Source of the DNA: Verrucomicrobium sp. | GTDB taxonomy: Bacteria > Verrucomicrobiota > Verrucomicrobiia > Methylacidiphilales > UBA1321 | Assembly (NCBI GenBank): GCA_017849585.1 | Contig: JAFIGT010000037.1 | Location: 1-54,569 of the forward strand | Direction of reading: 5' to 3' | DNA length: 54,569 nucleotides | Shown here: positions 51,250-54,569 of the stretch, piece by piece | Layout: every line of letters starts with the position of its first letter | Numbering within the stretch: the first letter of the stretch is position 1 | Program-made: the position numbers and the translations under genes | Notes under the pieces: model-generated | What the model saw: only the letters and a program-made list of their open reading frames with translations | Database searches by the model: none | What the model was told of the DNA's origin: nothing

Positions 51250-51254
51250 AGGTG

Positions 51255-51685
51255 GTGGGTGGATGGTCGCTCTCGGCGCAAGCTGGGAGAGGAAAGTCCG
51301 AACACCAGAAGGCAGCGTGCCGCAGAAAAGCTGCGGAGCGGCGTGGCTCAAGCTGCGCTGGATGGAAAGTGTCACAGAAAACAAACCGCCCCGGTCGCAA
51401 GATCGGGGTAAGGGTGAAAAGGCGGGGTAAAAGCCCACCGCCCGGTGAGTAATCATCGGGGCATGATAAACCCCACGCGGTGCAAGGCCAAACAGAGGCG
51501 TCGGGCCGCCTGTCCTCCCGGCTCCCTTCACGGGGATTCGGGACGCCTCGGGTACAGGTCGCACTCCGGCACGGTTCGCCGTGTCGAGTCGATCGGGGAA
51601 ACCCGATCGAAGATAAATGACCATCGGTGAGTGTCCACCGCCGCAAGGCGGAGACGTTCATTACAGAATTCGGCTTACAGCCCAC
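51255..51685 (+). ncRNA. rnpB: RNase P RNA (class A)
   Basis: Conserved blocks occur in the right order: GAGGAAAGTCCGAACACC near the 5' end, the CACAGAAAAC and AGGGTGAAAAGGCGGGGTAA region, a GCCCACCG block, AGATAAATGACCATC and ACAGAATTCGGCTTA near the 3' end. The ends are set by the P1 stem, GTGGG (51255-51259) with CCCAC (51681-51685), so they may be off by a few bases. It is the catalytic RNA that matures tRNA 5' ends. A terminator follows at once. Confidence 0.95.
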
Positions 51686-51689
51686 GATG

Positions 51690-51720
51690 AAGGGCGCTTC
51701 GGGAAACCGGGGCGCCCTTT
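51690..51720 (+). terminator. rnpB terminator
   Basis: AAGGGCGC (51690-51697) pairs with GCGCCCTT (51712-51719), with a nested CGG/CCG pair around GAAA. A short T run follows. It lies directly after rnpB and before the end of the converging DUF4388 gene. Confidence 0.8.
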
Positions 51721-51754: not shown

Positions 51755-52462
51755 CTAATCGATGCGCTTGCCGCGCCAATAGCGAACGCCTTCCCCTTCG
51801 CCAGCATGGGAGGGATTGGGCAGTGGCGGTGGCGTGACGGCGGAGGTTTCCGGGATGCCGGGAATGATCGGATCTTCGGTCGGTTGTTCGGGCAGAGGTG
51901 TGTTGGCCGGGACGACCTGGGTGACGAGTTCGACGACACCGGCGAGGCGGAAGCGGGCCATGATGCGTGCGACTTCGAGGCCGTTCATCTGTACGCGCGT
52001 GGCGATTTGCTCGATGGTGTTTTTGCCATCGGCGAGGAGCAGGAGGCCGAGTTCGCTGGGGGTGGCGGTGGTGGTGCCGAGCGATTCGCTGCCGAGAAAG
52101 TAGAGAACGGAGTCAAGCGTGGGGACGGCCTGTTGCAGTGCGGCGAGTTCGTCGATCTTCTTGGCCACGCCGTCGATGAGAATGGCGGGATCGTAAGAAG
52201 CGAGTTCGCGGGGAGCGGTGGCTTCGATGGCTTGCTCCTTGAAGATGAAATCCGCATCGCGCCAGAGAATGAATTGATAGAGAGCCTGCGGACCGCTGAC
52301 GTTGCCAGTGAGGGCATTTAGAATCAGGCCCTGGTCCAATCCCATGAAGCCTTGCTCGAGGCCGAGGGTCATCCGGAGGATACCAGTTTGTTTGGTCATG
52401 GTGAGCATGCGCAACACCTCGGCCAAGTTGATGGTCTTAAAGTTTCCGGCAAATTCGGGCAT
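51755..52462 (-). CDS. DUF4388 (PATAN) domain protein
   Basis: The protein is 235 residues from the ATG at 52462 (MPEFAGNFKTI). The N-terminal ~100 residues match the DUF4388/PATAN pattern: FAGNFKTINLAEVLRMLTMTKQTGILRMTLG, GLILNALTGNVSGPQALYQFILW. A winged-helix-like stretch (LLADGKNTIEQIATRVQMNGLEVARIMARF) follows, then a Pro-rich tail. PATAN proteins connect signalling to motility or polarity; the role here is unknown. It is divergent from a receiver-DUF4388 protein across 148 bases. Confidence 0.8.
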   Translation of the reverse strand: MPEFAGNFKTINLAEVLRMLTMTKQTGILRMTLGLEQGFMGLDQGLILNALTGNVSGPQALYQFILWRDADFIFKEQAIEATAPRELASYDPAILIDGVAKKIDELAALQQAVPTLDSVLYFLGSESLGTTTATPSELGLLLLADGKNTIEQIATRVQMNGLEVARIMARFRLAGVVELVTQVVPANTPLPEQPTEDPIIPGIPETSAVTPPPLPNPSHAGEGEGVRYWRGKRID

Positions 52463-52610: not shown

Positions 52611-53429
52611 ATGTCTCGCCAGCTATTAATTATTGATGATCAGGATGATATCTTACGCATTCTCGATCGTGAATTGGTCAAAACCTACCAATGCACGGTC
52701 TATGTGGCGACGAATTCAGTGCAGGCCTTCGAGCAATTGGCGCAGCATCCGGTGGAGTTGATTATTAGTGATGTGCGCATTGGCGAAGAGAATGGGTTCA
52801 ACTTGCTGAAGGCGATTCGCTCCCGCTATCCGAATGTGGGGTTGATGATGATGACGGCGTACCGCTCGCCGGGGTACCGCCAGATGGCGGATGAACTGGG
52901 CGTGGCGTTTTTTATCGAGAAGCCGTTTGCGATTTCCATGCTGGCGAAAGCGGTGGACCGGTTCTTTACGCAGCGGGCCGCGCAGCTGCCACCCGCTCCG
53001 GCGATGGCTACTGGCAAAAATAATGCATTGGAGCATTTCAGCATTCAGGATCTGGTGCAGCTTTTTTGTCTCAATGGACGCAACGTACTCATTAGCGTCA
53101 CGGTTTCGCCCTTGCATCCGGTCGGTTCCATTTATCTCCAGCGGGGCCGGGTCGTGCACGCGGAATGGGGGGCGCAGAAGGGGGAGGAAGCCTTTTATTC
53201 ACTCTTGATGTGTTCTTCCGCGCAGCTCGGTCTGGAGGATCACGACGTTCCGGTGGCGGCAACGATCACCTCGGGCTGGGAGCAACTCTTGCTGGAATCG
53301 GCCCGGCGTGTGGACGAGGCGGCAGAGGTTGTCGAGGTCACGGGTTCGGCGGCTCCGGAAAAACCACCGCAAGATCCCTTTGCGGATTTCTGGAAAAGTG
53401 CGAGCCTGTCTCCCATCCACAAGTTGTAA
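52611..53429 (+). CDS. Response regulator: receiver domain fused to DUF4388 (PATAN)
   Basis: The protein has 272 residues. The receiver domain (1-120) has the acidic pair IIDDQDD, the phospho-acceptor Asp in LIISDVRIGEENG, the Thr in MMTAY and the Lys in IEKPFA, so it should be phosphorylatable. Residues ~135-240 are a DUF4388 domain (LEHFSIQDLVQLFCLNGRNVLISV, GSIYLQRGRVVHAEWG, GEEAFYSLLM). No sensor kinase is adjacent. A 37-base gap precedes the next gene on the same strand. Confidence 0.9.
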   Translation: MSRQLLIIDDQDDILRILDRELVKTYQCTVYVATNSVQAFEQLAQHPVELIISDVRIGEENGFNLLKAIRSRYPNVGLMMMTAYRSPGYRQMADELGVAFFIEKPFAISMLAKAVDRFFTQRAAQLPPAPAMATGKNNALEHFSIQDLVQLFCLNGRNVLISVTVSPLHPVGSIYLQRGRVVHAEWGAQKGEEAFYSLLMCSSAQLGLEDHDVPVAATITSGWEQLLLESARRVDEAAEVVEVTGSAAPEKPPQDPFADFWKSASLSPIHKL

Positions 53430-53466: not shown

Positions 53467-54569
53467 ATGAGCCGGCAATGGCCTGACATGTTTTTTGGCA
53501 AGGTGGTTGGTGGGGTAACCACCAAGCGTCCGGTTCCCGCCAAATATCATCCGTCGACAACTCCTGCCGAGCCGTTCGGTTCGACGGGTACCGCGACGGC
53601 GTTGCTCGATCCGCCGGATCTTGCGCGCACGGCACCGATTCCGCTCCCGTTTCCGCCTGCCGCGACTCCACCCACTCCCGCTCCAGCGCCGGCGGCCCCG
53701 GCGTTTTCGTTGCCGCGCTCGAATGCGTCATCGAAAACGTGGCCTGGCATGTTCTTCGGTCAGCCGATTGCGGCTCATGCTCCCACGGCACCGCGTCCAG
53801 TGCCTGCATCGGTTTCCGAGCGACCGACCACGACGACCACGCGAGTGCCCTTGTTTGAACTACCTCCCGGTGCGCAACCGGCCTATTTGACTGCGGCACC
53901 GCCCGTTCCTCAAGCGGCTTCCCTGCACAAACCGGTGGCAACGAACTGGCCGGGAATGTTCTTTGGTGATCGCACGACCACCTCGGTACAGGTCTCCAGT
54001 GCTGCTCCAGCACCAGTTCCGGCTCCTGCCCCGGCGGTTGTGCCCGTGTCGGTTCAACCTCCGGTGACGCAGGTGCCCGTTCCTCCAGCGGTGACGCCTG
54101 CCCCGGCAATATTTCGCGCGCCCACACCCGCTCCGGCTCCCGCCGCTGGCGACAATCCTCTCAGCGCTTTCCTGACGCCGCTGGCGCAGCGACCGACGGG
54201 TGTATCGAAAATCAATCTCCCCGGTCGGCCTGCGACCGAAAAAGCGAGCCCCATCCCCGCCGCACCGACACCTGCTCCGGTGGCGTACCGTCCTCCACAA
54301 GCCGCGCCAGTTCCCGCCCCACAGGTTGCGCCGCCCCTTGCCCCAGTACCAGTTTTCGTTCCCGCTTCTTCCCTACCGACCAGCGTGGTACTGCCTCCGG
54401 CCTTCAGTCGTGAGTCCGCGCCTCCGGTGGCGCCGGTGTTCGTGCCGGACGAAAATTCGGCGGAGGTTTCCGCGCAGACCGATCCCGTGGGTGGGACGGA
54501 GGTGCATCGCGAATTTCTGCTCAATAACGGCGAACGCATTTCGGGCAAGGTGGTTTCCGAAACGGCCGA
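53467..54569 (+). CDS. Proline-rich protein with three WPxMFFG motifs (3' end outside window)
   Basis: A continuous frame of 367 codons runs from the ATG at 53467 to the window edge with no stop. The protein is Pro/Ala/Val/Thr-rich and probably disordered. It carries WPDMFFGK at residue 5, WPGMFFGQ at 92 and WPGMFFGD at 161. Near the end HREFLLNNGERISGKVVSETA begins what looks like a small folded domain, perhaps a Sm-like or PilZ-like barrel; I cannot name it. There is no signal peptide. It follows the receiver-DUF4388 gene and may be its partner. A tiny frame from 53452 (MKASE) ends on the ATGA overlap and could couple translation. Confidence 0.75.
   Translation, partial: MSRQWPDMFFGKVVGGVTTKRPVPAKYHPSTTPAEPFGSTGTATALLDPPDLARTAPIPLPFPPAATPPTPAPAPAAPAFSLPRSNASSKTWPGMFFGQPIAAHAPTAPRPVPASVSERPTTTTTRVPLFELPPGAQPAYLTAAPPVPQAASLHKPVATNWPGMFFGDRTTTSVQVSSAAPAPVPAPAPAVVPVSVQPPVTQVPVPPAVTPAPAIFRAPTPAPAPAAGDNPLSAFLTPLAQRPTGVSKINLPGRPATEKASPIPAAPTPAPVAYRPPQAAPVPAPQVAPPLAPVPVFVPASSLPTSVVLPPAFSRESAPPVAPVFVPDENSAEVSAQTDPVGGTEVHREFLLNNGERISGKVVSETA

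Follow-up and report, generated by a model that had tools for sequence, protein, structure and literature searches.

A gene that runs off the 3′ end of the window (the 54,569-nucleotide stretch of Verrucomicrobium sp. DNA analysed here, which is a whole contig, C18 of genome G000) probably encodes, as far as sequence comparison can tell, an undescribed, lineage-restricted signalling scaffold with putative partners. The main new observation concerns its neighbour, a receiver-PATAN (REC-DUF4388) response regulator: a DPFADFWK tail on this regulator was seen only where the scaffold gene adjoins (three genomes with both and three genomes of another genus with neither, a single phylogenetic contrast that amounts to effectively one gain or loss event), which suggests that tail and scaffold function together. 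We found no described family to which the scaffold belongs; it would work like known multivalent or tethering scaffolds. The original prediction of a signalling scaffold is thus partly supported: its motifs and its linkage to PATAN genes proved to be conserved and a scaffold role fits the data best, while the docking of these motifs on PATAN domains that it proposed has become an unlikely explanation (see below).

Table 1. Features of the candidate scaffold locus, in window positions (G002 and G003, genomes of the window's genus and of a second genus; G004, G006 and G008, a third genus)
Feature	Position	Strand	Remarks
PATAN (DUF4388) protein, divergent	51755..52462	-	winged-helix family HTH_47 match below cut-off
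RYWRGKRID C-terminal tail of the PATAN-winged-helix protein	51758..51784	-	invariant core R-[YF]-W-R-G in 6/6 family members examined
Receiver-PATAN (REC-DUF4388) response regulator, 272 aa	52611..53429	+	phosphorylation residues present: acidic pair D9 and D10, phospho-Asp D54, T82 and K104
DPFADFWK tail of the receiver-PATAN protein, after a Pro-rich linker	53373..53396	+	in G000, G002 and G003; absent in G004, G006 and G008
Candidate scaffold gene, 5′ part	53467..54569	+	367 of 492 aa; 3′ part on another contig of this genome, C37 (inferred join)
Motif 1, WPDMFFG (aa 5-11, extreme N-terminus)	53479..53499	+	WPDMFFG in G002, WPDIFFP in G003
Motif 2, WPGMFFG (aa 92-98)	53740..53760	+	WPGMFFG in G002, WPEMFFG in G003
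Motif 3, WPGMFFG (aa 161-167)	53947..53967	+	WPGLFFG in G002, absent in G003
KINLPGR peptide (aa 248-254)	54208..54228	+	KITLPAR in G003; common to both genera
First of three predicted 44-45-aa beta-barrel repeats, opening the C-terminal domain	54502..54569	+	remainder on C37

The scaffold reading frame (53467-54567 and beyond) is still open at the window edge. The original prediction had called for the rest of the gene, and the search for it yielded both a 3′ part, at the end of contig C37 on the reverse strand, and two orthologues. We infer the join of the window with C37 from their 15-base overlap and from the same-genus orthologue (509 aa in G002, Verrucomicrobia bacterium Tous-C9LFEB), which is intact across the junction; the other orthologue (506 aa from the first ATG) is found in G003, a member of a second genus of the family. 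The sample of scaffold proteins therefore consists of three sequences, two of them near-identical. The linker is rich in Pro (23%) and Ala (17%), and the protein is likely to be cytoplasmic, since no hydrophobic stretch of transmembrane strength was found in it.

Both neighbours are PATAN proteins, as had been claimed from the translations: DUF4388 (PF14332) scores 49.3 bits in one and 40.9 bits in the other, where 25 is the cut-off, and is likewise above it in the G003 orthologues; in the receiver-PATAN protein, a receiver domain (PF00072, aa 6-115, 72.1 bits) precedes DUF4388 (aa 140-237). Two genera of a single Verrucomicrobiota family share the gene order PATAN-winged-helix / receiver-PATAN / scaffold, and the linkage to PATAN genes, whose loss the original prediction would have counted against itself, holds in all three scaffold-bearing genomes. 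In G000 and G002, 37 bases separate the receiver-PATAN stop codon from the scaffold ATG; in G003 the distance is 380 bases, a less operon-like arrangement. A CheW-receiver (CheV-type) gene lies 3′ of the scaffold in the window's genus but not beside it in G003. On the other side of the locus, an RNase P RNA of bacterial class A (Rfam RF00010, 205 bits; 51251-51693, plus strand) sits between a minus-strand gene and the PATAN-winged-helix gene.

The Pro-rich linker that carries the tail differs strongly in length between the two scaffold-bearing genera, while the PP[QG]DPFADFWK sequence at its end is identical. In the third genus the receiver-PATAN protein stops before the tail, and no scaffold gene stands beside it: a convergent hybrid kinase gene is next in G006, the end of a convergent kinase gene is visible in G008 before the contig ends, and no motif-bearing frame was found in the ~1 kb flank in G004. 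This absence was judged by reading the loci because one early search with the partial scaffold missed the true orthologue in G003; a further genome, G001 (79% complete), is uninformative. The other terminal peptide of the locus behaves differently: R[YF]WRG[KR][KR]I (PRYWRGKRI in the window) ends the PATAN-winged-helix protein in all six family members, whether or not a scaffold gene is adjacent. Hence the DPFADFWK tail appears to travel with the scaffold, whereas the WRG tail does not. Neither tail, nor the identity of the folded domain, had featured in the original prediction.

The structure of the protein was modelled by AlphaFold2 on the G002 sequence with a two-row alignment, and the domain limits are given in G002 residue numbers. 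Residues 1-361 were modelled at pLDDT below 50 and without secondary structure, and this Pro/Ala-rich region is predicted to be disordered. Residues 362-497 form three four-stranded repeats at pLDDT of about 57-77 (about 65-77 over the barrels themselves; another model had 57.6 overall), each of 44-45 aa and following the pattern EVILLNGDRIxGDxIAETxDxIYxRNxxLGxLTIP, so that the folded domain suspected at the window edge is borne out as a set of beta repeats. In the models, at low-to-medium confidence, they appear as three Sm-like small beta-barrels. The single curated Pfam match above threshold (PF17357, FIT1_2 of yeast; 29.6 against a cut-off of 26.1, E 8e-7) was judged a chance match to repeats. 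The full-length model placed none of the motifs in a docked position, but it says nothing on docking because the linker has pLDDT below 50 throughout. The barrels are a likely partner of the DPFADFWK tail, since the tail is found only with an adjacent scaffold gene, and this pattern favours a tail-barrel pairing at least as much as a pairing of WPxMFF with PATAN.

The reading that we favour, tentatively and with a probability of about 0.4, is a cytoplasmic multivalent scaffold for the receiver-PATAN regulator. The barrels would grip up to three REC-PATAN molecules by their DPFADFWK tails, and the WPxMFF peptides would bring in a second partner in two or three copies; candidates for this partner are a PATAN domain, an ATPase of the pilus motor or a chemosensory coupling protein. 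Phosphorylation of D54 would switch what the cluster does, and the output would be to control or localise type IV pili or cell polarity. By analogy, such an output is likely because cyanobacterial PATAN regulators interact with the pilus motor PilB (PMC10519157; PMC7690835), and the genome carries members of the pilus/secretion motor ATPase family (PilB-family), a PilM-family protein and MglA-type genes. No pilus gene adjoins the scaffold locus in the DNA read there. A wider version of the proposal, a signal-switched multivalent system in which barrels bind regulator tails, WPxMFF binds a second client, phosphorylation controls a pilus or polarity cluster, and the PRYWRGKRI and STQRIVLP peptides (for the latter, see below) belong to the same short-motif network, is doubtful.

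The scaffold could instead assemble with itself, its barrels binding the WPxMFF peptides of other copies to build a network or condensate in which the regulator is concentrated. Motifs (two or three) and barrels (three) do reside on one chain, and barrels of the Sm/LSm type can bind peptides in multivalent networks (PMC4320757); however, the number of motifs (three and two) does not track that of barrels (three and three), and the REC-PATAN tail would be left without an explanation. We consider such a hub rather unlikely.

Docking of the WPxMFF peptides on PATAN domains, by which the scaffold would gather the REC-PATAN and PATAN-winged-helix proteins, is the mechanism put forward in the original prediction, and the three-gene neighbourhood conserved in two genera speaks for it. 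The REC-PATAN and PATAN-winged-helix genes, however, lie near each other without a scaffold gene in the three genomes of the third genus. Furthermore, WPxxFFG, counted as the nucleotide pattern TGGCCNNNNNTNTTYTTYGG over the 4.79-Mb genome, matched the three scaffold sites only (a reversed control pattern gave one match). A generic binding to PATAN is unlikely because the genome encodes eight DUF4388 proteins and has WPxxFFG in the scaffold alone.

A quite improbable alternative is a nucleic-acid-binding protein, with RNA or DNA as the ligand of the three barrels and the linker serving as a spacer. It draws on the structural matches, which are mostly to Hfq, Sm and KOW/Tudor chains: the structure comparison lists (for repeat 1 of one model and repeat 3 of the other) were filled by Hfq and Sm chains at Z of about 6-7.7, a range below 8 in which a match may reflect just a common arrangement, and Foldseek with the barrels returned KOW/Tudor tandems. 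Pfam matches below the cut-off were to the RNase P subunit p29 (E 0.00027) and to the Rho RNA-binding domain (E 0.021). No sequence match to a curated LSM or Hfq profile of Pfam was seen in the scaffold C-terminus, and the best hit of the barrels in a PDB sequence search had an uninformative E-value of 0.011. Against nucleic acids, Sm-like barrels bind peptides too, and the repeated motifs and the gene neighbours would remain unexplained.

The three WP[D/G]MFFG motifs in a Pro/Ala-rich chain, the starting point of the original prediction, were recovered as described, and their conservation in orthologues, on which that prediction had staked itself, extends to all three copies in the same genus and to two in the second genus. 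All three Trp residues of the 492-aa protein lie inside the motifs, and in each of the three scaffold sequences every linker Trp belongs to a WPx[MIL]FF. Between G000 and G002 the share of codons with a changed amino acid (1/21 in the motifs, 44/321 in the linker) does not differ significantly, so the case for motif conservation rests on the distant G003 copy, whose linker otherwise aligns with that of the window's genus mostly through its Pro/Ala composition. The linker was shuffled 20,000 times with its composition preserved, and no shuffle produced at least two copies of WPx[MILV]FF. It is accordingly very unlikely that we are dealing with a little-constrained, lineage-specific low-complexity protein whose motif repeats are recent duplicates devoid of any specific role: restriction to one family, the missing third motif in G003 and drift of the linker in length and sequence would fit, but motifs 1 and 2 survive there in a largely rewritten linker and no shuffle yields two of them. 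For the second conserved peptide of the linker, [KR][IV]xLPxR, the shuffle frequency was 0.0004-0.0015 for a pattern picked post hoc. The G003 linker (L012:5031-6611, minus strand) also contains near-tandem VIPGVPEEEGGTA repeats, of which there are none in the window's genus; an IIPGIPE stretch in the PATAN-winged-helix protein of the window resembles them, perhaps by chance.

The distribution of the scaffold is narrow, each absence holding within the sensitivity of the respective search. A wide occurrence in other Verrucomicrobiota, where the original prediction had proposed to look for further examples, did not materialize: 386 further genomes from the phylum had no scaffold at E<=1e-6. The receiver-PATAN protein was found in none of the 386 at E<=1e-40, a threshold that catches close relatives only, and the PATAN-winged-helix protein in one of them at E<=1e-20. 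Strict motif patterns picked out 29 stretches in GTDB-220, with Tous-C9LFEB as the sole relative, and 10 stretches in viral contigs, with no relative among them; plasmids gave nothing.

The nearest functional comparison is with the PATAN regulators of cyanobacterial phototaxis (PixG, PilG, TaxP2, PixE), which likewise unite a receiver and PATAN in one protein; the CheW-receiver gene following the scaffold in the window's genus adds to the likeness. The domain order differs, the receiver being N-terminal to PATAN here and PATAN coming first in the cyanobacterial pilus regulators, and no motif scaffold is described alongside the latter in the passages compared. The C-terminal pentapeptide tethers of chemoreceptors (NWETF type, binding CheR/CheB) resemble DPFADFWK and RYWRGKRI as aromatic peptides at the end of a chain after a flexible linker, but the peptide sequence and the host protein (PATAN) differ and no receptor is involved here (PMC7390727). 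Sm-type barrels and repeated motifs in disordered chains also make up the multivalent network of Edc3 LSm and the leucine-rich motifs of Dcp2; that system, however, is eukaryotic, acts in mRNA decapping, uses helical leucine-rich motifs and has barrels and motifs on separate proteins, so that the likeness is one of layout only (PMC4320757). In the pilus polarity system of Myxococcus (FrzS/SgmX/SopA), the pseudo-receiver protein FrzS and the partly disordered adaptor SopA gather regulators of the pilus motor, and a database search in the same study found two PATAN proteins co-occurring with SgmX (PMC11580455). FrzS is without critical phosphorylation residues, and SopA was found only in Myxococcales (PMC11580455).

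Much work has been done on short linear motifs in eukaryotic signalling; descriptions of them for the outputs of bacterial two-component systems are rare. If scaffold and tail are indeed a pair, they would provide a small three-gene model for the tethering and clustering of receiver-PATAN proteins and a handle on the roles of PATAN outside cyanobacteria, the narrow distribution restricting the general reach of the finding.

Pro-rich chains with short conserved peptides stand beside PATAN genes at two loci in the genome. At the other one (L033:7307-9562, plus strand, contig C39), a 752-aa Pro-rich protein (P0001) with a helix-hairpin-helix match is encoded divergently from an FHA-DUF4388 gene and is followed by a gene for an MglA-like small GTPase. 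A peptide of the STQRIVLP type is present in the Pro-rich part of 10 of the 11 family sequences (one genome has STQRLIVTP), and the folded C-terminus, which has no Pfam match, is one that we take for roadblock-like. PilN carries a PilM-binding 'INLLP' peptide, and KINLPGR of the scaffold was considered as its mimic; the likeness is weak, and the candidate was rejected, the fused PilM-PilN of this genome reading EISLIPPALK at that place. The latter is a 583-aa PilM-family protein (L084:9764-11515, minus strand, contig C43) with a PilN-like C-terminal part, and it looks like a PilM-PilN fusion. On contig C12 (L036:6239-11145, plus strand), a receiver-DUF4388 gene is followed by an Hpt-HATPase kinase gene, a CheY-like gene and two CheX genes, which together form a second chemosensory-like PATAN cluster.
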